DNA of 64,000 nucleotides, taken from assembly GCF_009720365.1 (NCBI RefSeq), contig NZ_WBZD01000017.1, positions 1 to 64,000 on the forward strand, in the 5' to 3' direction. A model generated the notes under the pieces. The model saw nothing but the letters and a program-made list of their open reading frames with translations, did not search any database and was not told where the DNA came from. This DNA comes from Catellatospora paridis (GTDB lineage Bacteria > Actinomycetota > Actinomycetes > Mycobacteriales > Micromonosporaceae). The position numbers were made by a program, and so were the translations under genes. Shown here piece by piece: positions 8,008 to 64,000 of this stretch; position 1 is the first letter of the stretch; each line of letters opens with the position of its first letter.

Positions 8008-8015
8008 GCAGGACG

Positions 8016-8046: not shown

Positions 8047-8047
8047 G

Positions 8048-48093: not shown

Positions 48094-49068
48094 TCAGAGC
48101 CAACCCCGCCGCACCGCCTCGGCGCCGGCCTGGAAGCGGCTCTCGACCCCGAGCCGCTTCATCAGGTCGGCCACGATCCGCCGGGCGGTGCGCCCGGACA
48201 CGCCGAGCTTGCGGCCCACCGACTCGTCGGTGTGCCCGGCGTTGAGCAGCCGCAGCACGGTGAGTTCCTGCGGGTTGAGCCCGTGCTCGTCGAGCTGGGG
48301 CGTCTCGCCGAACGGGGTGGCCAGCTCCCAGGTCTGGTCGAACAGCAGGCACAGCGCGGCGACCATGCTGCCGCTGCGGATCTCCAGCGCGCCCTTGCTG
48401 CTGTCGGCGACGTCCAGCGGCAGCAGCGCGATCTCCCGGTCGACCAGGGTCAGGCGCATCGGCACGGTCGCCACGGTGCGGCTGCGGCCGCCGATCGAGG
48501 CCATCCAGGTCGCGTACGCCAGTGTCGCCGGATCGTTGCGGCTGCTCTCCTGGTAGATGTTGCGGATCGCGACGCCGCGCTCCAGCGCCAGCTGGTTGAG
48601 CGACTTGCCGGACGCGATCGCGGTGGGCGGCAGGGCGTTGCCGGCCGTGAACGTGGCGCACTCGTGCCGCGCCGTGCGGGCCAGCTCGGCCAGCCGGTCG
48701 CGCACCGCGTCCAGGCCGTCGAGGCGCACCACCTCGTCGCGCTCGTGGCCGTTGTCGTACGCGTCGGCCACCGCGACGATGGACGCCCGGACCGTCGCGA
48801 AGTACTGCTGGCGTTCGGACAGCTCGGCCTCGACATGCGCCAGCAGCGCGGTGAGCCCCAGCTTCGGGCTGACCGCGCGCAGCATCCCCGGACGGCCCGC
48901 CGCCGGCTGGATCATCGCCCGTTCCGCGAGGAAGCCGAGCGCCTCCCTGACCCGGGACTCCGGCAGGCTGAGCGCCTCGGCGATCTCCTCGACGTCCCAG
49001 GTGGGGTGCTTCAGCATGGCCCAGTAGACAGACTCGGCCTCGGCCGACACCCCGAGTCGCTCCAGCAT
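48094..49068 (-). CDS. TrmB-like/LuxR-type transcriptional regulator
   Basis: The 324-residue protein starts with a winged-helix of TrmB type (LERLGVSAEAESVYWAMLKHPTWDVEEIAEALSLPESRVREALGFLAE) and ends with a LuxR helix-turn-helix (LNPQELTVLRLLNAGHTDESVGRKLGVSGRTARRIVADLMKRLGVESRFQAGAEAVRRGWL). The middle 180 residues look like a phospholipase-D-like sensor region of TrmB (FTAGNALPPTAIASGKSLNQLALERGVAIRNIYQE). Such two-HTH regulators are frequent beside RiPP clusters in actinomycetes. GGGGGAAG precedes the ATG at 49068. It is divergent from the RiPP operon across about 520 bases and may control it. Confidence 0.8.
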   Translation of the reverse strand: MLERLGVSAEAESVYWAMLKHPTWDVEEIAEALSLPESRVREALGFLAERAMIQPAAGRPGMLRAVSPKLGLTALLAHVEAELSERQQYFATVRASIVAVADAYDNGHERDEVVRLDGLDAVRDRLAELARTARHECATFTAGNALPPTAIASGKSLNQLALERGVAIRNIYQESSRNDPATLAYATWMASIGGRSRTVATVPMRLTLVDREIALLPLDVADSSKGALEIRSGSMVAALCLLFDQTWELATPFGETPQLDEHGLNPQELTVLRLLNAGHTDESVGRKLGVSGRTARRIVADLMKRLGVESRFQAGAEAVRRGWL

Positions 49069-49587
49069 GCTTCCCCCGTCGTCCTCAGAGCGCGCCTCGG
49101 CCACATTGTGCAACACATTCGGTCCATTGTGGAGTGGCGGAATAGGACAGCAAACGTGACCGAGAATATGACAACCGGCTTATTGGCATGAGCCGTTCGG
49201 CTGATGGTGGATCGTTACCCGGCGGTAGATGTGCGCTGCTCCGCAGCCCGCATCGCGGGTGCCCGGCCCGGGTGGGCCCGGCCCATCGGCGGCCGGCCGC
49301 GGCTGGCCGTTTCCGGCCACCTAGACCACCCTTCACCTGCCCGGACGCTCGCGAACCCGTGCGCCGCAACGGATCGCGCGCCTCGGCACCCGGGCTAGCT
49401 CCGGCGCGCCTGTCCGGATGAACCGGCCCTGAGCTGCTGTTTCTCCGCTGCGGGCGTGGACGGAAGTGGCCAGGGCCGCTTCGGTCCAATACAGAATCGA
49501 TGACACGGCGGCTTGCTGGATGCACGCTTATCCCAGAGCGAGAAAAGCACCGGAGAAAACGACCTACTAGCTTGGGGAGAAGCTGTC
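49069..49587. promoter_or_regulatory. 519-base divergent control region between the TrmB/LuxR gene and the RiPP operon
   Basis: No gene of credible length or composition lies here on either strand. CATTGTG occurs at 49104-49110 and again at 49125-49131, 21 bases apart (two helical turns), a possible regulator site near the start of the TrmB/LuxR gene. A GC-rich block with GGCC-rich inverted arms lies at about 49250-49320. The last 110 bases are lower in GC and contain TACAGA (49489) and TACTAG (near 49564) boxes that may be -10 elements for the peptide gene. No exact SARP heptad repeats are evident by eye. Confidence 0.4.
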
Positions 49588-49770
49588 ATGAAGGTCATGA
49601 AAATGTCTGTCGCAATGCGCTGCGGACTCGCCGTCGCCGCATTCTTCAGCCTCTCGGTCATCGCGTCCAATGCTGCATTCACCGGCGTACCGCAACACCG
49701 CACCGACACCGTCGCGGATGGCTTCGACTGGAGCCGGGTGCCGCAGAGCCCGACAGCCAAGACCGACTAG
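49588..49770 (+). CDS. short peptide with signal-sequence-like N-terminus
   Basis: This 60-residue peptide has a basic start (MKVMKMSVAMR), a hydrophobic stretch (CGLAVAAFFSLSVIASNAA) with a plausible cleavage site after SNA-A, and a polar 30-residue end with DGFDWSRVPQSP. GGGGAG lies seven bases before the ATG. The next genes are an 89-residue unknown protein and a SARP. It is unlikely to be the azole precursor, because its end has no Cys and few Ser/Thr. A secreted signalling peptide that acts on this cluster is possible but unproven. Confidence 0.6.
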   Translation: MKVMKMSVAMRCGLAVAAFFSLSVIASNAAFTGVPQHRTDTVADGFDWSRVPQSPTAKTD

Positions 49771-49784
49771 AACGGCACCAGGAA

Positions 49785-50054
49785 ATGCTGCTGACAATGA
49801 TCGTCCTCCGGCCGCCGGAAAGCCCCGGCATCCACCTGTCAGTCAGCGAGATCGTCGACCTGTTATGGCTCAACGCGGCTCTGTCTGACGGAGTGAAGCA
49901 CATCCACGCCCGTGCCGGCGCCGACTGTGTGGAAGTCGGCGTATTCACGGTCGCCTCCGAGCAGAGCATCTCCGACTACATCGTCCGCAAGGTCTGCGGA
50001 CGCGCGATTCACAACGTGCCGGCACTCCGCGGTTGGTCCATTCACCGGCCGTGA
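49785..50054 (+). CDS. 89-residue conserved-looking protein of unknown function, upstream of SARP
   Basis: The protein starts LLTMIVLRPPESPGIHLSVSEIVDLLWLNAALSDGVKHIHARAGADCVEVGVFTVASEQSISDYIVRKVC and ends ALRGWSIHRP. The pattern of a beta strand, helix, beta hairpin (VEVGVFTV) and helix suggests a small alpha/beta fold. The start is uncertain: ATG at 49785 or 49797, with AGGAA just upstream of the first. I do not recognise the family. Its place between a short peptide and a SARP suggests a regulatory role, and this is inference. Confidence 0.55.
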   Translation: MLLTMIVLRPPESPGIHLSVSEIVDLLWLNAALSDGVKHIHARAGADCVEVGVFTVASEQSISDYIVRKVCGRAIHNVPALRGWSIHRP

Positions 50055-50139
50055 CCCGTGCCAGACCGGCCGGCCCCGCCGCAGCCGAGTGTTCCACCGC
50101 CCGCTGGGCCCTCAGATCCCGCCGAGAGGTGCCATCGCC

Positions 50140-52143
50140 ATGCAGCAAATACGCAACGCCTGGACCATCGACGGTCCGGGACCGGGGCACGAGACGCCAC
50201 CGGCGCCAGGTCAGGCCGACCCGGCGCCGGGCCGGACCCGCTTCCAACTGCTCGGGCCGCTGACCATCACCGACGGCTCGGACTCCGTCGTGCTCGCACC
50301 GTCGAAGCCGACGATCCTGCTGGCCGTGCTGCTGCTCAACCCCAACGCGGTGGTCTCGGTCGGGGCACTGCAGCGCGCGATCTGGGGCGAGGACCAGCCG
50401 GTCACCGCGAAGGCCGCGCTGCAGACCTGCGCCATGCGACTGCGGCAGCTGTTCGGCCGGCACGGCATCGTCGCCAACGCCATCGAGACCGTGCCCGGCG
50501 GTTACCGCATCCTGGCCGGCCCGCAGTCGCTGGACCTGCTCAGGTTCCGCGAGCTGGTGCGCCGGGCAGCCGCGGAGGTCGACGCCGAGGCCGAGCTCTC
50601 GCTGCTGGAGGGCGCGCTGTCGCTGTGGCGCGGCCCGCTGCTCACCAACGTGCCCTCGGACGCCCTGCACCGCGACGTGGTGCCGCGGGTGACCGAGGAG
50701 CGGCTGAAGGTGCTGGAGCGGGCCAGCGACATCAAGATCTCGCTCGGCCGGTCCCGGTCGGCGCTGGTCGACCTGTGGGAGGCCGCGCGCAGCCACCCCG
50801 GCCACGAACGTTTCGGTGAGCAGCTCATCGAGGCGCTCTACCGCACCGGCCGGCAGGCCGACGCGCTCAGCGAGATCCGCCGGATCAAGGAGTACCTGCT
50901 CGACGAGCTGGGTGTCGATCCGGGGCGCGGGCTGCAGCGGCTCGAGATGGTCATCCTGCGGGGCGAGGAGCTGCCGCCGGTGGCTGTGGCCGAGCGGCCC
51001 GATCCCGGCCCCGCCGCCTCGGCGGTGCCCGTCGCCACGCACGGCATGCCGACGGTGTCCAGCTTCACCGGGCGGGCCGTGGTCAGCGACGCGATCGTCG
51101 CCCGGCTGGCCGATCCCGGCGCGGCGACCGTGCTGCTCACCGGGCCGCCCGGGATCGGCAAGACGGCGCTGGCCGTGCACGTCGCCGGGCTCGTCCAGGC
51201 GGGCTTTCCCGGCGGCGAGCTGTTCGTGGCGATGACCGGCCCGGACGGGCTGGCCCGCCCGGCCGCAGAGATCACTCGGCAGCTCGACGCCGCCTTCGGG
51301 CCGGCCGGCCACCGGCCGGTGACCGGCAATCCGCGCGGCCTGCTGGTGCTCGACGACGTGCTCGGGGTGGAGCAGGTGCGCCCGCTGCTGCCGGGTTACG
51401 GCGCGGCCGCGGGCAACGCCGTCGTCATCACCAGCCAGCGCAGCCTCGCCGGCCTGGTCGCCACGCACGGCGGCTGGGTGCACCGGCTGGACGTGCTGGA
51501 CCCCGACGAGTCCGACCAGCTGCTGGCCACGGTGCTCGGCGCGGAGCGGTCCGGGGCCGAGCCACACGAGCTGTCCCGGCTCGCCATCGCCTGCGGCCAC
51601 CTGCCGCTGGCGCTGCGCATCGTCGGCGCGCGGCTGCAGACCCGCCCCCGCCTGCGCATCGCCGACGCGGTGACCTGGCTGCGCGACGACCGGATCGCCC
51701 GGCTCGCGCTGCCCGACGAGCCGCTGCTGTCGGTGCGCAACAGCTTCCAGCGGGCGCTGGCCCGCCTGGAACCAGCCCTCGCCGAAGCCTTCACCAGGCT
51801 CGGCGCGGCCGCTGACCCCGTCTTCACGGTCACCGACAGCGCCCAGCTGTTCGGTGCCGCTCGCGCGTCGGCCGAAGAGCTGTTGGACCAGCTTGTCGAC
51901 GCGAACCTCCTGGAGGAAGGGCCGGGCCACTACGCGCTGCACGAACTGCTGTGGCTGTACGCGCGCAGCCGGCTCGTGCCAGCGGTGGCCGAACCGGTCG
52001 GCCCGGCCCTTCCCCGCACCACCGGCACCACCCGCCTGGTCGACGTCAACCGCAAACCCAGCGCCGCGCGTACCGCCGGCCGCGGCATGGTCGCCATCCC
52101 GGGCGAACCGGCCGTATCCCTCCGCGTTGTCAACGCCGCATAG
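50140..52143 (+). CDS. SARP-family regulator with NB-ARC domain (AfsR-like, no TPR), probable cluster activator
   Basis: The 667-residue protein has an OmpR-type winged helix (FQLLGPLTITDGSDSVVLAPSKPTILLAVLLLNPNAVVSVGALQRAIWG), the BTAD bacterial transcriptional activation domain (LDLLRFRELVRRAAAEVDAEAELSLLEGALSLWRGPLL to about residue 285), and an NB-ARC ATPase domain with P-loop LLTGPPGIGKTALAV and LLVLDDVL (Walker B). The TPR part of AfsR is missing. SARPs activate antibiotic clusters by binding direct repeats upstream of the promoter. GAGAGGT lies nine bases before the ATG. It directly precedes the biosynthetic genes and is probably their activator. Confidence 0.88.
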   Translation: MQQIRNAWTIDGPGPGHETPPAPGQADPAPGRTRFQLLGPLTITDGSDSVVLAPSKPTILLAVLLLNPNAVVSVGALQRAIWGEDQPVTAKAALQTCAMRLRQLFGRHGIVANAIETVPGGYRILAGPQSLDLLRFRELVRRAAAEVDAEAELSLLEGALSLWRGPLLTNVPSDALHRDVVPRVTEERLKVLERASDIKISLGRSRSALVDLWEAARSHPGHERFGEQLIEALYRTGRQADALSEIRRIKEYLLDELGVDPGRGLQRLEMVILRGEELPPVAVAERPDPGPAASAVPVATHGMPTVSSFTGRAVVSDAIVARLADPGAATVLLTGPPGIGKTALAVHVAGLVQAGFPGGELFVAMTGPDGLARPAAEITRQLDAAFGPAGHRPVTGNPRGLLVLDDVLGVEQVRPLLPGYGAAAGNAVVITSQRSLAGLVATHGGWVHRLDVLDPDESDQLLATVLGAERSGAEPHELSRLAIACGHLPLALRIVGARLQTRPRLRIADAVTWLRDDRIARLALPDEPLLSVRNSFQRALARLEPALAEAFTRLGAAADPVFTVTDSAQLFGAARASAEELLDQLVDANLLEEGPGHYALHELLWLYARSRLVPAVAEPVGPALPRTTGTTRLVDVNRKPSAARTAGRGMVAIPGEPAVSLRVVNAA

Positions 52144-52161
52144 GACAGAGGTGTATCCACC

Positions 52162-54396
52162 ATGACCACCGCCTACGAACGAGTCGCCGACACCCGCCCG
52201 CGGGTCCGCCGTGACCTGCTGTTCACCCGCACACCCGACGGTGTGCTGTTCCACAACTCGCAGGGAGGCTTCCGGGTCAACGCCAAGACGGCGTACCGGC
52301 TGGCGTCGCTGCTGATGCCGCACTTCACCGGTCGCAACCGGGTCGCGGACATCTGCCAGGGGCTCGGCGACGACCAGCGGGAGATGGTCGGCGAGCTGGT
52401 GAGCGCGCTGTACGCACGGGACTTCGCGCGGGCGGCGGAGCCGACCGACGACGGAACCGGCGAGCCGATCCTGGCCGCCGCGGTCGCCGAGCGCTTCGCC
52501 GCGCAGATCGCCTACATCGACCACTACGCCGACGCCCCGGAGACCCGGTTCGACCGGTTCCGGCAGGCCCGGATCGCCGTGCTCGGCGAGTCGCCGGTCG
52601 CCCGCTGGTGCGCCTCCAGCCTGGTCCGCAACGGTGCGGCCGCCATCGGCGTGGTGCCCGGCGGCGGTGAGGCGGCCGACCTGCACGAGCAGAACCTGGC
52701 CGAGGCCGCCGAGCTCACCGCGGCCGCCGCGCCGGTGACCATCCTGCCGCTGGGCGGGGCCGGGTCCGTGTTCGACTGGGCCGACCTCGCCGACTACGAC
52801 GTGGTCGTGGTGGCGGGCGGCGAGCGCGCGCCGTACCAGACGCTGCGCCTGCTGTCGGCGGGCGTGCCCGAGGGCAAGACGCTGGTGCCGACCTGGGTCT
52901 TCGGCGAGCGGGCCGTCGTCGGCCCGCTGATGACCGCCGGCTCGACCGGCTGCTGGACCTGCTCCGCGCTGCGGCTGAGCGCCAACGGCGACGCCGGTGT
53001 CGGCGCCGCGCTGTGGAGCACGGTGGCGCTGCCCGAGGCGGTGGCCGCCCCCGTGCGCCGCCCGGGCGGCCCGCTGGCCGCGATGATCGGCAACCTGCTC
53101 GGCTACGAGGTGTTCCGGATCGCCACCGGCGCGCTGCCGGCCGAGACCGCGGGCAAGGTGATCATCCAGAACCTGGCCTCGCTGGACGTGATCAGCGAGC
53201 GGCTGCTGCCGCATCCGCGCTGCCCGCACTGCGGCCCGTCGACGACGGCCGTCGACGACGTGCTCGACACCTCCTGGCGCACCACGGCCGACGTGGTGCT
53301 CGCCGCCGCGGCCGCCGCGCGCGCCGACGCCGAGGCCAACGCCGACGACGCGGCCGATGCCCTGGTCGAGGAGCTCAACGCCCGCGCGATGCTGCTGCAG
53401 CCGCACACCGGCGTGTTCGTGAAGTACACCGACGAGCAGTGGACGCAGACCCCGCTCAAGCTCAGCACCGTCGAGCTGGCCACCGTCGCCGGGCAGCGCC
53501 GCCAGGTGTCCGCCTTCGACGTGCACCACGTCGCGGGCGCGCGCCGCCGGGCACTGCACGAGGCCGCGGTGGTCTACGTGGAGCGGGCGGGACTGCTGCC
53601 CGCCGCGGACCCGGCCCTGCCGCGGTGCGACGCGGCGGCCTTCGGCACGGCCACGGGCGTGCCCGCGGTCGGCGACCCGGCCGGCCCGCAGACCACGGCG
53701 GTCTGCCTGACCACCGGCGAGGCCGTGCAGGTGCCGGTGGCGGCGGTGCAGCCGTTCGGCCCGGCCAACCAGCGGCGGGTCTTCGCCGCCACCCGGGCCG
53801 GTGCGGGCGCGGGCGCCGACCTGACCGAGGCGGTCGGGCAGGGCCTGCTGTCCGCGCTGGCGCACCGGGCGCTGACCGCGGCGATCCGCGGCGGCGAGGT
53901 GACCCGGATCGGGCTGGACACCATGGACGGTGACGCCGAGCTGACCTTCCTGGTCAAGTCGGCGCACAACCTCGGCATCCGGCTCGACCTGCTGCAGCTG
54001 CCGAGCGACGGGGCCGGGCACGCGCTGTTCGCGCGCACCCCCGCGCCCGAGGGGGCCGGCTGGGTGTGGGCGGTGGCCGCCGACACCTCCTGGCAGGCCG
54101 CGGCGCTGGCCGCGGTGCGCGACCTGCTCGGCCAGGTGCAGCTGCGCCAGCAACTGCCCGCGGATGCCGACGTCGACTGCGGCGACCCCGTGCTCGGCGA
54201 CTTCGACGCCGGCACCCTGCACCCGGCCGGGTCCGCCGCCGCGACCCTCGACGCCGCCACCACCTGGACCGGGGTCCTCGACGCGCTGACCTGCCTCGGG
54301 CTGACCGCGCTGGCCGTCCCGACCACCCCCGAGGACCTGCGCACGGCCGGGATCCACACGGCCCGGGTGCTGCTCGCACGGAGGGCCGACCGATGA
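52162..54396 (+). CDS. E1-like TOMM precursor leader-binding protein (ocin-ThiF/F-protein type)
   Basis: The 744-residue protein starts with an RRE-like winged helix (RVRRDLLFTRTPDGVLFHNSQGGFRVNAKTAYRLASLLMPHFTGRNRVADICQGL) that should bind the leader of the precursor. The E1/ThiF-like part follows (RIAVLGESPVARWCASSLVRNGAAAIGVV), with a zinc site of two Cys pairs, CWTC (264, 267) and CPHC (354, 357). The C-terminal half is less conserved. It presents the peptide to the YcaO enzyme, whose ATG overlaps its stop. A good GAGGT ribosome site precedes it. Confidence 0.85.
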   Translation: MTTAYERVADTRPRVRRDLLFTRTPDGVLFHNSQGGFRVNAKTAYRLASLLMPHFTGRNRVADICQGLGDDQREMVGELVSALYARDFARAAEPTDDGTGEPILAAAVAERFAAQIAYIDHYADAPETRFDRFRQARIAVLGESPVARWCASSLVRNGAAAIGVVPGGGEAADLHEQNLAEAAELTAAAAPVTILPLGGAGSVFDWADLADYDVVVVAGGERAPYQTLRLLSAGVPEGKTLVPTWVFGERAVVGPLMTAGSTGCWTCSALRLSANGDAGVGAALWSTVALPEAVAAPVRRPGGPLAAMIGNLLGYEVFRIATGALPAETAGKVIIQNLASLDVISERLLPHPRCPHCGPSTTAVDDVLDTSWRTTADVVLAAAAAARADAEANADDAADALVEELNARAMLLQPHTGVFVKYTDEQWTQTPLKLSTVELATVAGQRRQVSAFDVHHVAGARRRALHEAAVVYVERAGLLPAADPALPRCDAAAFGTATGVPAVGDPAGPQTTAVCLTTGEAVQVPVAAVQPFGPANQRRVFAATRAGAGAGADLTEAVGQGLLSALAHRALTAAIRGGEVTRIGLDTMDGDAELTFLVKSAHNLGIRLDLLQLPSDGAGHALFARTPAPEGAGWVWAVAADTSWQAAALAAVRDLLGQVQLRQQLPADADVDCGDPVLGDFDAGTLHPAGSAAATLDAATTWTGVLDALTCLGLTALAVPTTPEDLRTAGIHTARVLLARRADR

Positions 54397-56312
54397 CCAC
54401 CGCGCAGGTCCTGTGGGACCGCACCTGCGCGCCGCTCGACGCCGCGCTGCGCCGCAGCGCCCAGCGCTGGGGCGGGACGCGCCGGCCGGTCGAGGTGAGC
54501 GCGCTCGGGGTACGCGACGAGCTGTCGCGTCCCGCGACCGAGGCGTCGGCGGGCGGCGTGCCCGTGCACGTGTACGGCCGCACCGCCATCGTGGGCCCGA
54601 TCGGCACGGCCGGCGCCTGCGGGCGCTGCCTGGCCCGGCGGTGGCAGTCGATCCGCTCGACGGAGCTGCGGGACGCGCTGGAGCTCGGCTCGGACACCGA
54701 GGCGGTCGGGGACAACCCGTACGCGACGGCGTTCGCCGCCGACACGGTCGCCGCCCTGATCACCGAGCTGGTCCGCGCGGAGCAGACGGCGCGCGCCGAC
54801 GCGGCGGCCTGCGTCTACCAGGTCGACCTGGAGACGCTGCGGGTGCGGCGCTGGCCGCTGGTGCCCGACGCCGAGTGCCCCGACTGCGCCCGGCAGCTCG
54901 ACGACACCGCCGAAGGCGCGCAGATCACGCTGCGTCCCGCGCCGAAGCTGGACCAGAACTCGTTCCGGGTGCGCCGGGTCGAGGACTACGGCTTCGAACT
55001 GGAGGCCTTCGCCAACCCCGTGTGCGGGGCGCTGAGCACCAACCTGCTCTACGACATGTCCTCGGTGTCCACCTCGCCGACCATCGGCGCGTTCACCCTG
55101 CGCTCCGGGGTGTACCTGCGGGAGACGCTCTACGGCGGCCACGCCGACACGTACGCCCGCAGCGCGCGCATCGGGGTGCTGGAGGGCATGGAACGGGCCG
55201 CCGGGCTGCGTGCCCGCGCCAAACCGGCGAAGGTCGTCGCGTCGCTGCTCGAACTGGGCGACGCCGCGCTCGACCCGCGGGTGTGCGGGGTGCACTCCGA
55301 CGAGTTCTACGAGAAGAACCCCTACGTCACCCGGTTCACCCCGGAGCGGGAGATCCCCTGGGTGTACGGCTGGTCGTTGCGCGACCAGCGGCCCGTGCTC
55401 GTGCCCGAGGTGCTGGTGTACTACCACGCCACCGGCATGGAGAACCGGTTCGTGCAGGAGACCTCCAACGGCTGCGCCTCCGGCGGGTCGCTGGAGGAGG
55501 CCATCTACTTCGGGCTCATGGAGCTCGTCGAGCGCGACGCGTTCCTGCTGATGTGGCACGGGCGCAGCGCGCTGCCGGAGATCGACCCCCAGTCCAGCGC
55601 CCGGCCGGCGACCCGGCACATGGTGGACCGGATGGCGATGTACGGCTACCAGGCCCGCTTCTTCGACACCCGCATCACCTTCGACATCCCGGTGGTCACC
55701 GGCGTGGCCGTACGCCGCGACGGGGGCCTGGGCACGCTGTGCTTCGGCGGCGGCGCGAGCCTCGACCCGGAGGCGGCGATGAGCGCCGCGCTGTGCGAGA
55801 TCGCCACCGACTCGGTGAAGGTGCGCGGGCGCACGCTGGCCGACGAGGCCCGGCTGCGCACGCTGACCGAGGACTTCGACCTGGTCCGCGGCCTGCACGA
55901 CCACCCGCTGATGTACGGCGTGCCGCAGATGCGGCGCTACGCCGAGTTCCTCATCGGACCGGAGGGGCAGCCGCACACGCCCGCACGCCCGGTCGCCGAG
56001 ATCTACGGGGGCAGCCGCCCCGCCCCGCCGCTCGCCATCGACCTGCGCGAGGACCTGCAGCGCTGCGTGGAGGCGGTGGCGGACAAGGGCTTCGACGTGA
56101 TCGTGGTCGACCAGACCATGCCCGAGCAGCGCGACCTCGGCCTGCACACGGTCAGCGTGCTGGTGCCCGGACTGCTGCCGATCGACTTCGGCTGGATGCG
56201 CCAGCGGGCCCCGCTGATGCCCCGGGTGCGCACCGCGCTGCGGGCGGCGGGACTGCGCGACTCCGACCTGCGTCCGCAGGACCTGAACCCGGCGCCACAC
56301 CCCTTCCCCTGA
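54393..56312 (+). CDS. YcaO-domain azoline-forming cyclodehydratase
   Basis: The 639-residue protein has two parts. The first 170 residues hold two further Cys pairs, CGRC (76, 79) and CPDC (162, 165), a second putative zinc site. The YcaO domain follows, with the ATP- and Mg-binding signature ETSNGCASGG then LEEAIYFGLMELVERD (near residue 380). The C-terminus reads PAPHPFP, the PxPxP(xP) tail needed by peptide-cyclising YcaOs. It uses ATP to turn Cys, Ser or Thr of the precursor into thiazolines or (methyl)oxazolines. It is translationally coupled to the E1-like protein. Confidence 0.92.
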   Translation: MTTAQVLWDRTCAPLDAALRRSAQRWGGTRRPVEVSALGVRDELSRPATEASAGGVPVHVYGRTAIVGPIGTAGACGRCLARRWQSIRSTELRDALELGSDTEAVGDNPYATAFAADTVAALITELVRAEQTARADAAACVYQVDLETLRVRRWPLVPDAECPDCARQLDDTAEGAQITLRPAPKLDQNSFRVRRVEDYGFELEAFANPVCGALSTNLLYDMSSVSTSPTIGAFTLRSGVYLRETLYGGHADTYARSARIGVLEGMERAAGLRARAKPAKVVASLLELGDAALDPRVCGVHSDEFYEKNPYVTRFTPEREIPWVYGWSLRDQRPVLVPEVLVYYHATGMENRFVQETSNGCASGGSLEEAIYFGLMELVERDAFLLMWHGRSALPEIDPQSSARPATRHMVDRMAMYGYQARFFDTRITFDIPVVTGVAVRRDGGLGTLCFGGGASLDPEAAMSAALCEIATDSVKVRGRTLADEARLRTLTEDFDLVRGLHDHPLMYGVPQMRRYAEFLIGPEGQPHTPARPVAEIYGGSRPAPPLAIDLREDLQRCVEAVADKGFDVIVVDQTMPEQRDLGLHTVSVLVPGLLPIDFGWMRQRAPLMPRVRTALRAAGLRDSDLRPQDLNPAPHPFP

Positions 56313-56339
56313 GCCGACGACGACGAGAGAGGAACCACC

Positions 56340-57944
56340 GTGGGATACGCCCATGACTACGCCACGGCGATCATGCACCGGGGGCGGGTCGCGATGCCAC
56401 CGTTCAACTTCGAGCCGAACTGGCCGGACGCGCCGCGCAAGAGCAAGTTCTACCCGGACGCGGAGAACCTCCCGCTGCCCGACGCGCCGCCCCCGGCGGA
56501 GGCCACCGTGCAGGCCGGGCTCGACGCGCTCGGCGAGCAGGCGGCCGGGTTCACCCTGCCACTGCTCGGCGGGATGCTGCGCGACTCGTACGGGCTGCTC
56601 GGCCGCCGCCTCGGCGTGCAGGCCAACACCGACATGGCGGCGCTGCCGCAGTACGCGTACGCCAACTGGCACCGGGGCACCGCCTCGGGCGGCGGGCTCT
56701 ACCCGTGCTCCGTCTACTGGGTGTCCGGGTCGAGCGGCCCGATGACCCCCGGGATCTACTACTACGCCAACCCGCAGCACGCCTTCCAGCGGCTGCTCAC
56801 CGGCGACGTGACCGACCGGGTCCGCCGCGCGCTGGGCGACCTGCCGCTGCCGGAGGGGACCGACCAGTTCCTCGTGATCGGCGTGAAGTACTGGCAGAAC
56901 GCCTTCAAGTACAACAGCTTCTCCTACCACGCCGTCAGCATGGACGTCGGCACGGTGCTGCAGACCTGGCGGATGTGGGCGCAGGCACAGGGCCTGCGCA
57001 TCGAGCCCGCGCTGTGGTTCGACGCGGCCGCGCTGGGCGACCTGGTCGGTGCGGGCGGCGACGCAGAAGGCGTCTTCGCGGTCGTGCCGCTGGCCTGGGC
57101 CGGCACCGCGGCGTCCCGGCCGGCCGGGACCGCCGACGGCGAGCTGGGCGACGACCCGGCCCCCGCGGTGCGGCTGCGCGACCGGGAACGGTCGCGGACC
57201 ATGCTGCACTTCCCGACCCTGACGAAGATCCACCGGGCCACCAGCGCGCACGCCGCAGAGCGGCCGGACCCCGGGGCGCTCGCCGCCGCGGCGGCCGTGC
57301 CCGTCCCTGCGGACGGCGAGCGGATCACCCTGCCCGCCCCGCAGCCGCTGGACGCGGGGATCCGGGCCACGCTGCGCAGCCGGCGCAGCAGCTTCGGCCG
57401 GTTCGAGGCCGAGCGGGCGATGACCGCGGGGGAGCTGGGCACGCTGCTCGCGGCGACCGCGACGGCCAACCTCAACGGCGACGCGGGACCGGCCGAGGTG
57501 AACCTGACCAAGCTCTACGCCTTCGTCAACCACGTCCAGGGCGTGCCCGCGGGCAGCTACGAGTACGACCCGAGGGCGCACGCGCTGCGGCTGGTCGACC
57601 CGGTGCCGCCGGGCGACTTCCTGCAGCGCAACTACTTCCTGTCCAACTACAACCTGGAGCAGGCGGGCGCGGTGGTGGTGCCCACCATCCGCACCGCGGC
57701 CGTGCTCGACGCCGTCGGCGACCGCGGCTACAACGTGGTCAACGCGACCATCGGCGCCGTGGCGCAGATCTTCTACACCGCCTCCGCGGCCCTCGATCTG
57801 GGCTGCGGCGTCGCGCTGGGATTCGACAACATCTCGTACATCGAGCAGCTCGGCATCGAGCAGACGGGCGAGATGCCCCTGCTGATCATGCTGGTCGGGC
57901 ACGAGCGTCGCCACCCTGCCGACTTCCGCTACGAGCTGGTCTGA
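56340..57944 (+). CDS. SagB-type azoline dehydrogenase (tandem nitroreductase domains)
   Basis: The 534-residue protein has two nitroreductase-like halves. The first covers about residues 60-260 (NWHRGTASGGGLYPCSVYWVSG, TDQFLVIGVKYWQNAFKYNSFSYHAVSMDVGTVLQTW). The second starts near 330 (LRSRRSSFGRFEAERAMTAGELGTLLAATA, NVVNATIGAVAQIFYTASAALDLGCGVALGF). It should oxidise azolines to azoles with FMN. LanB-containing thiopeptide and goadsporin clusters have the same kind of enzyme. GTG start with AGAGAGGAA upstream. Confidence 0.85.
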   Translation: MGYAHDYATAIMHRGRVAMPPFNFEPNWPDAPRKSKFYPDAENLPLPDAPPPAEATVQAGLDALGEQAAGFTLPLLGGMLRDSYGLLGRRLGVQANTDMAALPQYAYANWHRGTASGGGLYPCSVYWVSGSSGPMTPGIYYYANPQHAFQRLLTGDVTDRVRRALGDLPLPEGTDQFLVIGVKYWQNAFKYNSFSYHAVSMDVGTVLQTWRMWAQAQGLRIEPALWFDAAALGDLVGAGGDAEGVFAVVPLAWAGTAASRPAGTADGELGDDPAPAVRLRDRERSRTMLHFPTLTKIHRATSAHAAERPDPGALAAAAAVPVPADGERITLPAPQPLDAGIRATLRSRRSSFGRFEAERAMTAGELGTLLAATATANLNGDAGPAEVNLTKLYAFVNHVQGVPAGSYEYDPRAHALRLVDPVPPGDFLQRNYFLSNYNLEQAGAVVVPTIRTAAVLDAVGDRGYNVVNATIGAVAQIFYTASAALDLGCGVALGFDNISYIEQLGIEQTGEMPLLIMLVGHERRHPADFRYELV

Positions 57945-57967
57945 GCGAAGGGAATGGAGGGACCGCC

Positions 57968-60781
57968 GTGAACACATCACCCCCGACCCGCGCTCCGCGG
58001 GGCGAGGACATCGGGCCGGCCGGGGCGACCGCCCCGGCCTGGAGCCTGGGGCCGCAGTTCATGCTCCGCAGCGCCGGCCTGCCGGTGCAGGCGGTGCACG
58101 GGCTGCGCAGCGCCGGCGCGAGCGCGTGGGCCGACGAGGTCATCGCGCTGGAGGAGCAGCTGCGCGGCCGTGCCGCGCACCTGAGCGACCTGCTGCACGA
58201 ACTGATCGGGGCCAACTCCGACGACCAGTCGCGCCGCGCGCTGCTGGCGCTGCGCCGGCAGGTCTTCAAGAACGCGCTGCCCGCCGACCCGGCCGAGGCC
58301 GTGCGGCTGGTGCTGGCGCAGGACGTGTTCACGGCCGCCCAGCTGTCGGACTGGATCGACGACCGGCGGCGCGTCGACGCGAAACGGGCCCAGGGCGCGG
58401 CGCTGCTCGCCGCGGACCTGGACCGCAACCGCGCGGCGCTGCGCGAGCTGATCGTCGAGGACCGGCTGCGGCTGGGCCTGCTGCTGGCCTCCCCGGTGCT
58501 GGAAGGGCAGCTCGACGCCCTGCACCGGGAGGTCCCCGGCGGCAAGGTGGACAAGAAGCTGCGCAAGCTGGAGCGCTCGGTGCTGTCCTACCTGTACCGC
58601 ACCGCCTGCAAGACCAGCCCCTTCAGTACCTTCACGGGTATCGGGCTGGGCGATTTCGCCGACACGGACGCGGCCGGCGGGGACGGGTCGCACCGCATCA
58701 CCGCCGACCCGCGCTGGTCCAGCCACGTCCGGCTGAACGTGGTCGTGCTGGGCCGGCTCGCCGAGCTGATCCTGGCCGACCCGGCCCGCCGCGGCGACCT
58801 GCCGGTGACGCTCAGCCCGGGCTGGCGGCGCGAGGAGGACCGGGTCCGCTACGTACGCCGCTGGGTGACCGTCGGCGACGACAGCGCCTCGGTCAGCTTC
58901 GACTCGGTCAAGGACGGGCTGTTCTTCCTGCGCCGCAGCGGGATCCTGGACCGGATCATCGAGCTGTTCGCCGACGGGGCGCGGCTGCGCTGCCGCGACA
59001 TCGTGGACTGGCTGGCCCGCCAGCCGGGCACCCTGCCGCACGAGTGCGAGCAGTACCTGTCCACACTGCTGCGCCTGGGCATGCTCCAGGTGCAGGGCCT
59101 GGAGACCGATGTGCACACCGCCGACCCGGTGCGCGCCTTCCAGGCGTCGCTGCGTGCGGTCGGCGCGTCCTGGGCGTTCGAGGTGGCGGGGTGGCTGGAC
59201 ACGCCGCTTGCCTGCCTCGACGCGTACCCGGCGGGTGACGTCGGGCAGCGGCGGCGGCTGCTGGCGCAGCTGCGGGAGAGCCTGCAGGCGATCCAGCACC
59301 GGCTCGGCGACGAGTCGGCGACCCTGCCGCAGGCGCTGGTCTACGAGGACGTACGGGCCGGCGAGCAGCCGGTCCGTGCCGCCGGCGCGGCCTGGCGGGA
59401 GCTGTTCGGGCCGGCGATCTCCGGGATCGAGCGCATCCTGCCCGCGTTCGACATGACGCTGGCGCACCGGATCACCTTCAAGGGCTTCTTCCTGGCCCGC
59501 TTCGGCCGCGGCGGGCGCTGCGACGACATGCTCGGCCTGGTCGAGGACTTCCACGAGGACCTGTACGACCAGTACGTGTCCTACACCGCCGACCGGCGGC
59601 CGTTCGGCGACGACCACGAGTACGTGCCGGAGGAGAACTGGCTGGCGCTGCCCGGGATCGCCGCGCTCGACGCGGCCCGGCGGCAGTTCGCCGGCCGGAT
59701 GCGCAAGCTGTGGGAGGACGCGGCCGGGCGCGACGAGATCGTCATCGACGACGACTTCATCGCCCACGTCGCGGAGGAGCTGGCCCCGGTCGCGGGGGGC
59801 TTCGTGCCGCAGGGCCACTTCATGCAACTGGTGGACCGGCCCGATGACCCGCTGCTGGTGCTCAACCAGTCCTTCGGCGGGCTGTCTTTCCCGTTCAGCC
59901 GGTTCACGCACTGCTTCGACGGCTCCGCCCAGGACGGCGCGGCGGGTCCGCTGTCGGCCGGGCTGCGCCGCCACGCGGCCGCCATCCAGCCGGCGGGGGC
60001 GGTGTTCGCCGAGGTCACCGGTGGCAGTGCGTCCACCAACCTCAACCTGCACGGGCAGCTCACCGACTACGTGATCGTCTGCCCGGGTGAGTCGAGCACC
60101 GTGCCGGAGGCCGACCAGCTGCCGCTGGACGACCTCTACCTGGAGCACGACGCGGACGCCGACCGGGTGGTGCTGCGCTCGCGGCGGCTGGACCGCGAGG
60201 TGATCCCGGTGTACCTCGGCTACCTGATGCCGATGGCGCTGCCGGAGATCTCTCGCGCCCTGCTGCTGCTGTCGCCGGCCTCGATGGCCCGGCTCGACGT
60301 GTGGGGCGGCGTCGCGCCGGCCGTGCCGGACCGGGGCGTGTCCCGCCGGCCGCGGGTGCGCCACGGCCGCCTCGTGGTGAGCCGCCGCAGCTGGTCGGTG
60401 CTGGTCGCCGACCTGCCGCTGCGCAACCCCGCGGGCACGGACGCCGACTGGTTCCTCGACTGGAACCGCTGGCGGGCCGAGCACGGGGTGCCGCGCCGGG
60501 TGTTCGCCACCCTGTACGGCAACGGCGGCCGCGCCGTCGGCGGGGCCAAGCCGCAGTACCTCGACTTCGACAGCTTCCTGTCGCTGACCGCGTTCGAGGC
60601 GCTCGTGAAGAGCCCCGAGGCCCGGGTCGTGCTGCGGGAGATGCTGCCGGCCGAGGACGAGCTGCACGTCGGCTCGGCGCGCGGCGACCACGTCGCCGAG
60701 TTCGCGATCGAGACCCTGCACCACGCGGCGTCGCCGGCGCCGCTTGCCGCGCACACGGACCCCAGGGGTGCATCGTCATGA
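57968..60781 (+). CDS. LanB N-terminal-type dehydratase (glutamylation protein of a split LanB)
   Basis: The 937-residue protein is the lantibiotic dehydratase N-terminal domain. Visible landmarks are RLVLAQDVFTAAQLSDWIDDRR, the family stretch LSYLYRTACKTSPFSTFTGIGLG near residue 215, and a C-terminal half with NLNLHGQLTDYVIVCPG and YLDFDSFLSLTAFEALVKS. Such proteins use glutamyl-tRNA to glutamylate Ser and Thr of the precursor. The GTG at 57968 has GGAGGG six bases upstream, and the next gene (the elimination domain) overlaps its stop. Length and position match GodF/TbtB-type proteins. Confidence 0.88.
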   Translation: MNTSPPTRAPRGEDIGPAGATAPAWSLGPQFMLRSAGLPVQAVHGLRSAGASAWADEVIALEEQLRGRAAHLSDLLHELIGANSDDQSRRALLALRRQVFKNALPADPAEAVRLVLAQDVFTAAQLSDWIDDRRRVDAKRAQGAALLAADLDRNRAALRELIVEDRLRLGLLLASPVLEGQLDALHREVPGGKVDKKLRKLERSVLSYLYRTACKTSPFSTFTGIGLGDFADTDAAGGDGSHRITADPRWSSHVRLNVVVLGRLAELILADPARRGDLPVTLSPGWRREEDRVRYVRRWVTVGDDSASVSFDSVKDGLFFLRRSGILDRIIELFADGARLRCRDIVDWLARQPGTLPHECEQYLSTLLRLGMLQVQGLETDVHTADPVRAFQASLRAVGASWAFEVAGWLDTPLACLDAYPAGDVGQRRRLLAQLRESLQAIQHRLGDESATLPQALVYEDVRAGEQPVRAAGAAWRELFGPAISGIERILPAFDMTLAHRITFKGFFLARFGRGGRCDDMLGLVEDFHEDLYDQYVSYTADRRPFGDDHEYVPEENWLALPGIAALDAARRQFAGRMRKLWEDAAGRDEIVIDDDFIAHVAEELAPVAGGFVPQGHFMQLVDRPDDPLLVLNQSFGGLSFPFSRFTHCFDGSAQDGAAGPLSAGLRRHAAAIQPAGAVFAEVTGGSASTNLNLHGQLTDYVIVCPGESSTVPEADQLPLDDLYLEHDADADRVVLRSRRLDREVIPVYLGYLMPMALPEISRALLLLSPASMARLDVWGGVAPAVPDRGVSRRPRVRHGRLVVSRRSWSVLVADLPLRNPAGTDADWFLDWNRWRAEHGVPRRVFATLYGNGGRAVGGAKPQYLDFDSFLSLTAFEALVKSPEARVVLREMLPAEDELHVGSARGDHVAEFAIETLHHAASPAPLAAHTDPRGASS

Positions 60782-61836
60782 CCCAGACCATTCCGGCGCC
60801 CTCGGGCGTCGACACCGGCGAGTGGCTCGCCATCCACGTCTTCTACGCCGCCAACCCGCAGCCGCTGCTGACCCACTGCGTGGGCCCGCTGGTGAAGGAG
60901 CTGACCGAGGACGGCCTGCTGGCCGGGTACTTCTTCATCAACTACTGGCTGGAGGGCACGCACATCCGGCTGCGGCTCAAGCCGGCCCGGCCGGAGCTCA
61001 CCGACGAGGTCAAGGCCCGCGCCGAGGCGGAGATCAACGCCTTCCTGCGGCGGCGGCCCGCGCTGTACGAGATGGGCACCGGCTTCCTCGGCGAGCTCTA
61101 CAACAAGCTGTTCGAGCTGGAGTTCCCCGACGGCCGCCCGGCGCACCTGATCGGCGACGACGGCCAGATGCGCATGCAGCCGAACAACTCCTTCGCCTAC
61201 CGCGACTACGAGCCCGAGTACGGCAAGTACGGCGGCCCGGCCGGCATCGCCCTGGCGGAGTGGCACTTCCAGCACTCCAGCGACACGGTGCTGCACGCGA
61301 TCCGCACCATGAACCTGCACCTGCGGCCCGTGCTGTTCGGCGTCGCCGCGCAGCTGATGCTGGTGATGACGGCCTGCTTCCTGCCCGACCGGCGCAAGCT
61401 GGTCGACTTCCTGGACAGCTACCACACGTTCTGGCACAGCGCGTTCGCCGGCACGAACTTCATCGGCACCAACGAGTACGCCCGCATGTACGACGACATG
61501 GCCGGCGACCTGTCGGCCCGCTTCGTGGAAGTCCTGGACGTGCTGGAGCGCCGCGAGCTGGACCGCTTGCCGGAGTTCCTGCGCGCCTGGGCGGTGCACT
61601 GCTTCGAGCTGGCCGACCGGGCCCGCGAGCTGTCCGTGCGCGGCGAACTGGTGCTGCGCTCGTGGGACGGCTCCGGCGACCGGGCGGTCACCGACCCGGA
61701 GCGGGCGCTGCCGCTGGTGCTGTCGCCGTACCTGCACATGACCAACAACCGCTTCCACGTCACCATCCGCGACGAGGCGTACCTGTCCTACCTGCTGGGC
61801 CGGTCGCTGCGGGAACGGCTGGAGGCGGCGCCGTGA
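60778..61836 (+). CDS. thiopeptide-type LanB C-terminal (SpaB_C) protein: elimination domain, or pyridine synthase
   Basis: The 352-residue protein has the SpaB_C/Lant_dehydr_C fold: WLAIHVFYAANPQPLLTHCVGPLVKELTEDGLLAGYFFINYWLEGTHIRLRLKP at the start and YLHMTNNRFHVTIRDEAYLSYLL at the end. Right after a LanB N-terminal protein it should eliminate the glutamate to give dehydroalanine or dehydrobutyrine. The same fold also includes the [4+2] pyridine synthases of thiopeptides, but only one such protein is in the window, so elimination is the better call. The ATG overlaps the previous stop. Confidence 0.82.
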   Translation: MTQTIPAPSGVDTGEWLAIHVFYAANPQPLLTHCVGPLVKELTEDGLLAGYFFINYWLEGTHIRLRLKPARPELTDEVKARAEAEINAFLRRRPALYEMGTGFLGELYNKLFELEFPDGRPAHLIGDDGQMRMQPNNSFAYRDYEPEYGKYGGPAGIALAEWHFQHSSDTVLHAIRTMNLHLRPVLFGVAAQLMLVMTACFLPDRRKLVDFLDSYHTFWHSAFAGTNFIGTNEYARMYDDMAGDLSARFVEVLDVLERRELDRLPEFLRAWAVHCFELADRARELSVRGELVLRSWDGSGDRAVTDPERALPLVLSPYLHMTNNRFHVTIRDEAYLSYLLGRSLRERLEAAP

Positions 61837-63044
61837 GCACCCGCACCCTCACCGACGCCCGCCCGCGGCTGCGCGGCGACCTGCTGCTGAGCGCGCCGCT
61901 GCAGCGCGGGCCGGGAACCGTCTACCTGGTCAAGGACCCGTGCAGCGGGCGCGCGTTCGAGATCGCCCAGCGTGAGCATTTCCTGATCACCAGGCTCGAC
62001 GGGGCGCGCTCGCTGGCGCAGATCGGCGCGGAGTACGCGGCGGCCTTCGGCCGCAGGCTGGGCGACGGCCACTGGGAGCAGCTGCTGTGGCTGCTGCACG
62101 GGCGGCAGCTGCTGGCCGGCGGCCCGGTGGCCGTGGCGGACCCGGAGCAGGTCGGCCGGATCCACCGGTTCCGCCTGGTCCGCGACGCCGCGGCGGTGGT
62201 GGACCGGGTCCACGGGTGGGTGCGCCTCGCCATCCGCGGCCCGGTCGTGCTGGCCGTAGCGCTGGCCTGCGCGGCCATGCTGGCCGTGCTCGGCCTGCAC
62301 GTGGGCGAGCTGGTCGACGGGTTCCTCGGCCTCGGCGGGCAGCCGGGGGCGATCGTCGCGGTGTTCGCGCTGGTCTGGGTGAGCGCTGCGCTGCACGAAC
62401 TGGCGCACGGCGTGTCGGCGCGACACTTCGGCTGCACGGTCAGCGGTATCAGCATGCTGACGCTATCGTGCACTGTGGACAACCTCCTGTACCTCCAATC
62501 ACGACGGAGGCAGGCCGCTATCGCGGCGTCGGGAGCCCTGGTCAACGCGGCCTACCTGCTGCCGTTCGCGGCGGCCTGGCTGCTGCTGCCGGAGCAGTCC
62601 GCGGTGCGGGCGCCGTTGGCGGGCTTCCTGCTCGTCGGCGCGGTGCAGTCGCTGGTGAACCTGATCCCGCTCGCGCCGCTGGACGGCTACCGCATGCTCA
62701 GCTACGCGCTGCGGGTGACGAACCTGTCCGGGGAGAGCCGCCGCTTCCTGCAGCTGTCGCTGTGGCGGCTGTTCGGGCGCGGACCGGGTGTCGCAGGCTA
62801 CCCGTATCGTGCGAAGGTCACCTATGTCTCGTACGGGCTGTGGTCCGCCGCCGTCATCCTACTGGTCGGTACGGGATTGACGTTGATCTGCTACTCCCCG
62901 TTGGCAGATCATTTCGGTACATCGGCCGCCGTCATCCCCGGACTGATCGTCGTACTGACGCTCGCCGGCTGGTTGGCGCGTCCATCACGCATCCAGGCTC
63001 CACAAGCGACCGCAAGTGTCAGAGGAGAGGCAAAGGACCGATGA
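61833..63044 (+). CDS. M50-family membrane metalloprotease with RRE-like N-terminus
   Basis: The 403-residue protein has a soluble N-terminus (RGDLLLSAPLQRGPGTVYLVKDPCSGRAFEIAQREHFLITRLDGARSLAQIGAEYAAAF) that looks like a PqqD/RRE winged helix. At least six membrane helices follow. The zinc site is HELAH (188-192), and the second motif NLIPLAPLDGYR supplies Asp284. These are the marks of site-2-protease (YydH-like) enzymes. The GTG overlaps the previous stop, so it is part of the operon. It could remove the leader in the membrane. That is an inference from the fold and context. Confidence 0.85.
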   Translation: MSTRTLTDARPRLRGDLLLSAPLQRGPGTVYLVKDPCSGRAFEIAQREHFLITRLDGARSLAQIGAEYAAAFGRRLGDGHWEQLLWLLHGRQLLAGGPVAVADPEQVGRIHRFRLVRDAAAVVDRVHGWVRLAIRGPVVLAVALACAAMLAVLGLHVGELVDGFLGLGGQPGAIVAVFALVWVSAALHELAHGVSARHFGCTVSGISMLTLSCTVDNLLYLQSRRRQAAIAASGALVNAAYLLPFAAAWLLLPEQSAVRAPLAGFLLVGAVQSLVNLIPLAPLDGYRMLSYALRVTNLSGESRRFLQLSLWRLFGRGPGVAGYPYRAKVTYVSYGLWSAAVILLVGTGLTLICYSPLADHFGTSAAVIPGLIVVLTLAGWLARPSRIQAPQATASVRGEAKDR

Positions 63045-63988
63045 GTGAGGTTGAGGAATTGAGCGTCGTAGACGCGGTCGACGCGGGCAGCACACCCGCG
63101 ATCGTGATTGACGGGGTGTCCAAGAGCTACGGCGACGTGCACGCGGTGCAGGGCGTGTCCCTGTCCATCGGGCAGGGCGAGTTCTTCGGCATCCTCGGCC
63201 CCAACGGCGCGGGCAAGACCACCCTGATCGAGATCGTGGAGGGTCTGCGCGATCCGGACGCCGGCCGTGTGTCGATCTTTGGGTTGTCGCCGCATCCGCG
63301 CAACCCGGCACTGCTGCCCCGGATGGGGGTGCAGACGCAGAAGTCGGCGTTCTTCACCCGGCTCACCGCGCGCGAGCACCTGGAGACGGTGGCCGCGCTG
63401 TACGGCAAGGACGCCGCGGCGGCGCAGCGCGCGCTGACCGTGGTCGGCCTGGACGGCTCGGCGAACGTACGCGTCACCGACGTGTCCGGCGGGCAGCGGC
63501 AGCGGCTGGCGATCGCCTCCGCGCTGGTGCACGACCCGGAGGTCATCTTCCTGGACGAGCCCACCGCGGCGCTCGACCCGCAGGCCCGTCGCGACCTGTG
63601 GAAGCTGCTGCGTGAGCTCAAGGCGGCCGGCAAGACCATCGTCTACACCACGCACCACCTGGACGAGGCCGAAGCCCTCTGCGACCGCGTCGCGATCGTG
63701 GTCGCCGGCAAGGTCGTCTCGCTGGGCAGCCCGCACCAGCTGGTGAACGCCGCCGGCCTGCCGACCCGCCTGCTGGTGGCGGTCGACCGGATCACCGTCG
63801 AGCAGGCCCGCGCCATCCACGGCGTGGACTCGGTCACCGTGGAGGGCGGCTCCGTCGTCATCTCCAGCCGCAACGCCGCCAAGGTGCTGGCGGCCGTCGC
63901 CGAGGTCGCCGGCCTCGACGGCGTGCAGACCCGCACCGCGACCCTGGAAGACGTCTACCTCGAACTGACCGGAACGGAGCAGCAGTGA
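63041..63988 (+). CDS. ABC transporter ATP-binding protein, peptide exporter
   Basis: The 315-residue protein has Walker A GPNGAGKT (53-60), the signature VSGGQRQRLAIA, Walker B VIFLDEPTAALD, a His-switch (TTHHLDEAE) and a C-terminal extension typical of DrrA/CcmA-type exporters. Its ATG overlaps the protease stop, and a further start (GTG 63985) overlaps its own stop. It should energise export of the mature peptide and/or self-resistance together with the permease that starts at the window edge. Confidence 0.93.
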   Translation: MSEVEELSVVDAVDAGSTPAIVIDGVSKSYGDVHAVQGVSLSIGQGEFFGILGPNGAGKTTLIEIVEGLRDPDAGRVSIFGLSPHPRNPALLPRMGVQTQKSAFFTRLTAREHLETVAALYGKDAAAAQRALTVVGLDGSANVRVTDVSGGQRQRLAIASALVHDPEVIFLDEPTAALDPQARRDLWKLLRELKAAGKTIVYTTHHLDEAEALCDRVAIVVAGKVVSLGSPHQLVNAAGLPTRLLVAVDRITVEQARAIHGVDSVTVEGGSVVISSRNAAKVLAAVAEVAGLDGVQTRTATLEDVYLELTGTEQQ

Positions 63989-64000
63989 GCGCCTACGCAG
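63985..64000 (+). CDS. start of the next operon gene, probably the ABC permease (partial)
   Basis: A GTG at 63985 overlaps the ATPase stop (GTGA). Only MSAYA is visible before the window ends. ABC-2-type permeases normally follow such ATPases, so a permease is likely, but this rests on position only. Confidence 0.4.

Follow-up and report, generated by a model that had tools for sequence, protein, structure and literature searches.

A probable azole and dehydroamino acid peptide cluster in Catellatospora paridis with tandem precursor genes and a conserved core

Results

A biosynthetic operon and its precursor genes

The DNA analyzed here (the window) is a 64,000-base stretch covering positions 1-64000 of contig C8 (NZ_WBZD01000017.1; 366,398 bases) in the 8.97 Mb genome of Catellatospora paridis, and all downstream coordinates continue its numbering. 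An operon beginning at position 50140 encodes, in order, a SARP-family activator, an F protein, a YcaO cyclodehydratase (YcaO1), a nitroreductase-type dehydrogenase, the separate halves of a split LanB enzyme (LanB-N and LanB-C), an M50 protease, the ATPase and permease of an ABC exporter, and a second YcaO (YcaO2). Together with three precursor genes located past the end of the window, this operon probably makes up a complete cluster for a ribosomally synthesized and post-translationally modified peptide (RiPP), most plausibly a linear one carrying both azoles and dehydroamino acids. All ten operon genes are open, a plot of third-position G+C content tracks each of their frames, and four-base ATGA/GTGA overlaps occur at six of the nine junctions from SARP to YcaO2. 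A preliminary description made from the window had proposed a tight operon with several such overlaps, containing a SARP, an E1-like leader binder, a YcaO with a PxPxPxP tail, a nitroreductase, a split LanB, an M50 protease and an ABC exporter. Coordinates, domains and motifs bear out each of these genes, all on the plus strand, and YcaO1 indeed ends in PAPHPFP. The start that it gave the stretch, 49588, falls about 550 bases ahead of the SARP start codon chosen here, and a minus-strand gene further upstream, encoding a TrmB/LuxR-type regulator, may also belong to the cluster (Table 1).

The same description held that the cluster had no visible precursor. Extending the sequence past 64,000 overturned this point: three tandem precursor genes follow on the same contig, 2.9-4.0 kb from the window's end, on the strand opposite the operon and between YcaO2 and an M20 peptidase gene. 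Their apparent absence arose because the window ends 2.9 kb before them. Each precursor consists of a leader with ETFAISDYADAAE and, if cleavage precedes SC, a core of 22 residues, 20 of which are Ser, Thr or Cys (for example, SCSSSATTSTTSSTTSTTSCSA). With that cleavage, the calculated [M+H]+ of the core before any modification is 2045.81, and that of the 21-residue consensus is 1960.76; each azole would subtract 20.03 and each dehydration 18.01. The copies are spaced 486 and 471 bases apart, and across a 189-base stretch the outer two share 79% and 97% identity with the middle copy. On the NCBI precursor model TIGR03892 (cut-off 25), two of them pass at 29.4 bits, and the third, which was entered without its first Met, scores 19.4 bits. 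Searching the genome with this model at E ≤ 0.001 returned two places, both past the window. Because NCBI models name the precursors, peptides of this type are already catalogued.

Every precursor gene has its own upstream repeat and its own strong downstream hairpin (z scores of -4.9, -4.6 and -6.6, with 0 of 200 shuffles equally stable), an arrangement that suggests separate transcription of the three. TGACAG/CTGTCA boxes lie around their upstream regions at 67184-67222, 67665-67775 and 68136-68163. Across related clusters, these boxes are found in 14 of 19 upstream regions, with 21 in total where mononucleotide shuffles give 0.6 on average; the 19 regions are mutually related and one (L099) derives from a doubtful start. 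We looked for the heptamer spacing of SARP boxes among the TGACAG/CTGTCA boxes upstream of the precursors and found no clear spacing. A plus-strand open frame of 444 residues (66826-68160) covers all three precursors antisense. Likewise, on the Streptomyces plasmid NZ_CP108024 (L159), the gene table lists an antisense 'hypothetical protein' at 7925-8176 (-) over a precursor-like frame at 7944-8117 (+). Precursors of such clusters are easily missed because they run antisense to the operon or to listed frames.

Table 1. Genes of the Catellatospora paridis cluster and its surroundings, with the matches on which each assignment rests
Feature	Position	Strand	Matches
TrmB/LuxR-type regulator, possible cluster regulator	48094..49116	-	TrmB and GerE Pfam matches
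SARP-family activator with NB-ARC domain	50140..52143	+	BTAD, Trans_reg_C, NB-ARC
Ocin-ThiF-like F protein, YcaO-like C terminus	52162..54396	+	TIGR03693, TIGR03882, genome YcaO match
YcaO1, cyclodehydratase, truncated C domain	54393..56312	+	TIGR03604, TIGR03882
SagB-type azoline dehydrogenase (nitroreductase)	56340..57944	+	TIGR03605, PF00881
LanB-N, N-terminal glutamylation enzyme	57968..60781	+	PF04738
LanB-C, read as glutamate eliminase	60778..61836	+	PF14028
M50 intramembrane metalloprotease, presumed leader peptidase	61833..63044	+	PF02163
ABC exporter ATPase, DrrA-like	63041..63988	+	PF00005, TIGR01188
ABC permease, DrrB-like	63985..64740 (63985..64000 in window)	+	PF01061, 86 bits
YcaO2	64737-66734 (beyond window)	+	TIGR03604, 331 bits
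Precursor 1	66904-67080 (beyond window)	-	TIGR03892, 19.4 bits
Precursor 2	67390-67566 (beyond window)	-	TIGR03892, 29.4 bits
Precursor 3	67861-68037 (beyond window)	-	TIGR03892, 29.4 bits
M20 amidohydrolase/peptidase	68187-69473 (beyond window)	+	PF01546, PF07687

The enzymes and a predicted pathway

With its YcaO cyclodehydratases and a precursor whose core is made of Cys, Ser and Thr, the cluster has the hallmarks of an azole-containing RiPP (a thiazole/oxazole-modified microcin or linear azole-containing peptide). YcaO1 exceeds the cut-offs of both TIGR03604 (304 bits) and TIGR03882 (108 bits) and carries SNGCASG and ELVERD. YcaO1 and YcaO2 alike end in PHPFP and contain SNGxAxG and ERD motifs as well as a TIGR03882 C domain with CxxC pairs; judging by the positions of their domains, they appear to lack the leader-binding part. 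A truncated fused cyclodehydratase, combining TIGR03882 and YcaO domains, next to an F protein is a feature of thiopeptide clusters. The F protein itself passes TIGR03882 (60 bits, cut-off 36.9). A direct Pfam scan of this protein listed no family, and the genome search gave its C terminus (53665-54372) a YcaO match of 37.9 bits (cut-off 25.7). Scanning that C terminus for the YcaO catalytic motifs found it without them. In our reading it is probably a degenerate YcaO end, which an old YcaO fusion would fit. The dehydrogenase passes TIGR03605 (129 bits, in two stretches), matches PF00881 and has two nitroreductase-like halves.

The remaining genes would supply leader removal, export and late processing. 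The M50 protease is above the PF02163 cut-off, scores 76 bits on a daptide protease model (cut-off 300) and contains HELAH and PLDG motifs. The ABC ATPase matches PF00005 and reaches 230 bits on TIGR01188, under the cut-off of 312.

Families, motifs, precursors and conservation are read directly from the sequences; from the families we predict each chemical step, and the cut site, the linearity and the function are likewise proposals. The F protein would bind the leader around ETFAISDY and present the core to the two YcaOs for cyclization of some of its Cys, Ser and Thr residues, and the nitroreductase would oxidize the resulting azolines to azoles. LanB-N would add glutamate to remaining Ser and Thr residues and LanB-C would remove it, giving dehydroalanine (Dha) and dehydrobutyrine (Dhb). 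Leader cleavage near ILA/SC could then fall to the M50 protease and export to the ABC pair, and the M20 enzyme may trim the product or otherwise act late. We also considered a model in which Dha, azole and a third residue repeat in a three-residue phase, given Cys at positions 1, 4, 10 and 19 of the 21-residue consensus. Because Cys also occurs at position 2 in several loci and at position 3 in precursor 1, we treat this model as a guess only.

LanB-C as a putative glutamate eliminase

The form of the product depends on what LanB-C does. In a thiopeptide cluster, LanB-C would really be, or would also be, a [4+2] pyridine synthase, and the product would be macrocyclic. To this the protein families lend some weight: the precursors match a model named thiazolylpeptide-type (TIGR03892), and F proteins are typical of thiopeptides in the available text of PMC4603692. 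LanB-N points the same way. Compared as a profile with solved structures, it scores 248 bits on chain 6ec7, which we take to be TbtB, and 135 bits on the goadsporin protein 9jhq, presumably GodF. At the same time, its separation from LanB-C as a distinct protein is a goadsporin-type feature.

LanB-C matches PF14028 (141 bits) and is the sole PF14028 protein found in the genome, so a thiopeptide reading would require Dha to form without an eliminase. Its HMTNNR motif, found unchanged in 13 of 13 sequences of an alignment, aligns with HMTCNRL of the full-length lantibiotic dehydratase 5ehk. At that position TsrE aligns without the His-Met, and the TbtD alignment stops short of it. The His of this motif is, we assume, the one that is catalytic in NisB. 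On the pyridine-synthase model NF045556, LanB-C reaches about 78-79 bits against a cut-off of 325, and no protein in the genome reaches that cut-off. The model does find targets elsewhere: among 250 genomes of the same bacterial family, nine proteins in eight genomes pass it at 418-479 bits. A close LanB-N relative is present in 33 of these genomes; G075 alone among the 33 has such a protein, on contigs that do not carry its cluster. A PADLOC scan of LanB-C gave no match.

Several results weigh against our interpretation. The F protein is a distant match to TIGR03693 (73 bits, cut-off 562). The closest solved relative of LanB-C is TbtD, by single sequence as well as by profile, where TbtD (53 bits) and TsrE (40) rank above 5ehk (26). 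Furthermore, the HMTCNRL piece alone scores only 3.8 bits, and LanB-C is nearly equally close to TIGR03891 (80.6 bits) and to the pyridine-synthase model (79.2). The profile ranking alone would not settle the choice between eliminase and pyridine synthase. LanB-C keeps the LanB elimination motif and no pyridine synthase in the genome passes the cut-off, and for these reasons we predict a linear product, assign LanB-C as a probable glutamate eliminase and regard the thiopeptide alternative as unlikely.

The gene set is shared by a large cluster family

We asked how widely this arrangement occurs. LanB-N relatives at E ≤ 1e-20 are present in 51 of the 250 family genomes, including that of C. paridis, and in 33 at E ≤ 3e-175. 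From named genomes, 165 stretches fit our patterns, 101 of them encoded a relative and 80 were kept; with the window and L042, this gave 82 loci. At least 22 kb is available for 66 of these, which divide into 47 two-YcaO loci (the window included) and 19 one-YcaO loci. The F protein, nitroreductase, LanB-N, LanB-C and M50 protease are present in all 66. SARP and the ABC permease each occur in 44 of the 47 two-YcaO loci, compared with 2 of 19 and 0 of 19 one-YcaO loci. The preliminary description regarded the gene order as setting the cluster apart; instead, the order from F protein to YcaO2 on one strand is common to 44 of 47 two-YcaO loci. The exceptions are three Actinomadura loci (L110, L113 and L114), in which the second YcaO is a fragment cut by the end of the locus. 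The same gene set, with a precursor, thus recurs across genera, and in a second genome of the genus the ten operon proteins are 94-98% identical. Relatives of LanB-N also occur in two plasmid records (39% and 29% identical).

A motif search detected precursors in 42 of 47 two-YcaO loci and 12 of 19 one-YcaO loci, and a looser search added the other seven one-YcaO loci and L103. Salinispora clusters at first seemed to be precursor-less, a possibility that we rejected when all four genomes tested proved to have a precursor outside the 10 kb flank; in both of the genomes checked for it (two of the four), the M20 gene adjoins the displaced precursor. In two Salinispora genomes, such a pair of precursor and M20 gene occupies L160 10709-12222, about 8 kb from YcaO2, and L161 3060-4573, about 6 kb from it, each with other DNA between.

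The M20 gene is found in 40 of 47 two-YcaO loci and in none of the 19 one-YcaO loci. In 38 of those 40, no more than 1.5 kb separates it from a precursor. The distance grows to about 17 kb in Micromonospora loci L065 and L096, where the two lie at opposite ends of the cluster, which rules out that the M20 gene always adjoins the precursor. Homologues of the TrmB/LuxR-type regulator (>60 bits) accompany 27 of 47 two-YcaO loci and 0 of 19 one-YcaO loci, some of them only about 30% identical and on the opposite side of the cluster.

A core held constant across bacterial families

The precursors of these relatives revealed unusual constancy in the core. We gathered 93 precursors. An SA or TA end is seen in 41, of which 34, from 33 loci, are identical over their last 17 residues. 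These loci come from Streptomycetaceae, Micromonosporaceae and Pseudonocardiaceae, and pairwise identity among their LanB-N proteins is 52-94% (median 59%, from the 496 of 528 pairs with enough overlap). At the codon level, 35 loci with the same last 12 residues show synonymous differences in 33% and non-synonymous ones in 1.3% of comparisons over the last 17 positions, the latter figure being lowered because the loci were chosen for an identical core end. The corresponding values for the leader are 18% and 19% (hinge) and 14% and 8% (first 14 codons of its motif). Serine codons of the core even switch between TCN and AGC. The telling point is the number of loci that qualify and the codons that differ between them. 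We conclude that selection holds the core residues in these relatives. The cores of the C. paridis cluster keep the end, as SSTTSTTSCSA or SATTSTTSCSA, with the middle Cys replaced by Thr.

One tentative explanation, which we put forward as a possibility rather than an expectation, is that the product is a hypermodified, hormone-like peptide shared widely among actinomycetes. Virtually one product, with the tail SSTSTCSSTTSTTSCSA, would have stayed unchanged across Streptomyces, Micromonospora and Actinokineospora while LanB identity fell to as low as 52%. Its core would owe its conservation to a conserved target or receptor and not to a role as a weapon in an arms race. In the same proposal, the cyclodehydratases would divide Cys from Ser and Thr, so that Dha and Dhb alternate with azoles along nearly the whole chain.

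The conservation also bears on whether the cluster is still in full use. It could be partly disused, with its precursors modified by the YcaOs only or by LanB only. Against this stand the ten open operon genes, the YcaO, M50, LanB-C and ABC motifs, all of which were present where sought, the 94-98% identity of the ten proteins in the second genome and the selection on core residues in relatives. Of the alternatives weighed here, partial disuse seems to us the least likely.

The second YcaO and core composition

We next compared the two YcaOs. A quick tree was built from 68 YcaO domains, which represent 43 of the 82 loci and exclude three fragments at locus ends. In it, 25 YcaO2 sequences form one clade with a Shimodaira-Hasegawa-like approximate likelihood ratio test (SH-aLRT) value of 100, and 15 single YcaOs (SH-aLRT 85) group with 28 YcaO1 copies (92). 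The two cluster types differ in their cores as well. As a share of Cys, Ser and Thr together, Cys per locus makes up 0.08-0.21 among the two-YcaO clusters (43 loci) and 0.10-0.33 among those scored as one-YcaO (15 loci), 12 of which lie at 0.24-0.33 (Mann-Whitney p 2e-6); the count omits loci without a motif match and L042, a near-copy of the C. paridis cluster. We infer that YcaO2, which is missing from clusters with Cys-rich cores, serves cores rich in Ser and Thr.

Some observations temper this association. Two of the low one-YcaO values come from L091 and L105, which are two-YcaO-type clusters cut by contig ends. L120, a one-YcaO locus, has a share of 0.149, and Cys-rich precursors there were missed by the motif. 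In addition, the loci are kin, so the association amounts to about one evolutionary contrast, yet there would be a good chemical reason behind it.

Individual one-YcaO loci show further features. L116, from Catellatospora coxensis, has a single YcaO and Cys-rich cores, which places both cluster types in what is very probably a single genus. Among L119-L140, many Cys-rich cores carry a recurring block, SCSCSSCCSCSTSSCC, that spans Micromonospora, Streptomyces and Sphaerisporangium; the Jiangella version has one Cys changed to Ser. A single cluster often has the block in at least two different precursors.

Discussion

Our analysis describes a large family of clusters for azole and dehydroamino acid peptides whose precursors NCBI models name only as thiazolylpeptide-type. 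The preliminary description was right to see a RiPP cluster with azole and dehydroamino acid enzyme families that does not match goadsporin or thiopeptides gene for gene, and was mistaken about the missing precursor. Of the two product types that it named, goadsporin-like linear azole peptides and thiopeptides, the latter is disfavored because this genome has no pyridine synthase above the cut-off. Searching the literature by core and leader strings, family and precursor model, we came upon no described product for the cluster, with most subscription papers outside that scope. The family offers two natural experiments: clusters with and without YcaO2 can show whether the second enzyme buys Ser/Thr cyclization, and a core that selection has kept fixed in several bacterial families raises the question of what the product binds. 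The F protein is itself of interest. Outside heterocycloanthracin and thiopeptide clusters, only two cases are given in the available text of Cox 2015 (PMC4603692), and here F protein and split LanB occur together in 66 of 66 loci of at least 22 kb.

How does the cluster compare with known systems? Coryneazolisins resemble it in having two YcaOs, lanthipeptide-like dehydratases and no [4+2] enzyme, as far as the portion of PMC4603692 that treats them goes. Theirs are one discrete and one fused YcaO, in Corynebacterium, their precursors place an Ile between two Cys/Ser/Thr blocks, and that portion does not mention an F protein. Dehydrazoles such as carnazolamide likewise place Dha beside azoles on one hypermodified peptide (PMC10676384, in the text available). 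According to the same text, their clusters use a LanM-type DUF4135 dehydratase and a nitrile-hydratase-like leader, compared with a split LanB and a short leader here; because of the DUF4135 enzymes, we rejected membership in that group. Thiopeptide clusters of the TbtA type share the F protein, the truncated YcaO, the split LanB, a LanB-N whose nearest solved structure is TbtB and the TIGR03892 match, and they differ in the pyridine synthase, for which nothing in this genome passes the cut-off.

Goadsporin is a close parallel in predicted chemistry. It is a linear peptide whose azoles and Dha arise through a YcaO, a dehydrogenase and a split LanB, and its cluster has one cyclodehydratase (GodD), the peptidase-transporter GodB and the acetyltransferase GodH (PMC5303826, in the sections available). 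Could the C. paridis locus simply be a goadsporin or spongiicolazolicin cluster, gene for gene, making a known type of compound? The shared set of YcaO, dehydrogenase and split LanB would allow it (available parts of PMC5303826 and PMC10676384). Set against the goadsporin genes, the only ones compared, C. paridis has two YcaOs with an F protein instead of a single cyclodehydratase, together with an M50 protease, a DrrAB-like ABC exporter, an M20 enzyme and a core made almost entirely of Ser, Thr and Cys. Moreover, a Pfam scan of 16 proteins (the ten of the operon and six neighbors) found no acetyltransferase above cut-off, the match in an ArsR-type gene reaching 17.8 bits, below its cut-off of 23.6. 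Such an identity is therefore improbable, somewhat more so than a thiopeptide. In the steps that they share, the two systems should work alike. One defining feature of each class, goadsporin and thiopeptide, was sought and is missing here, and what the cluster brings together is a predicted goadsporin-like chemistry with thiopeptide-like enzymes.

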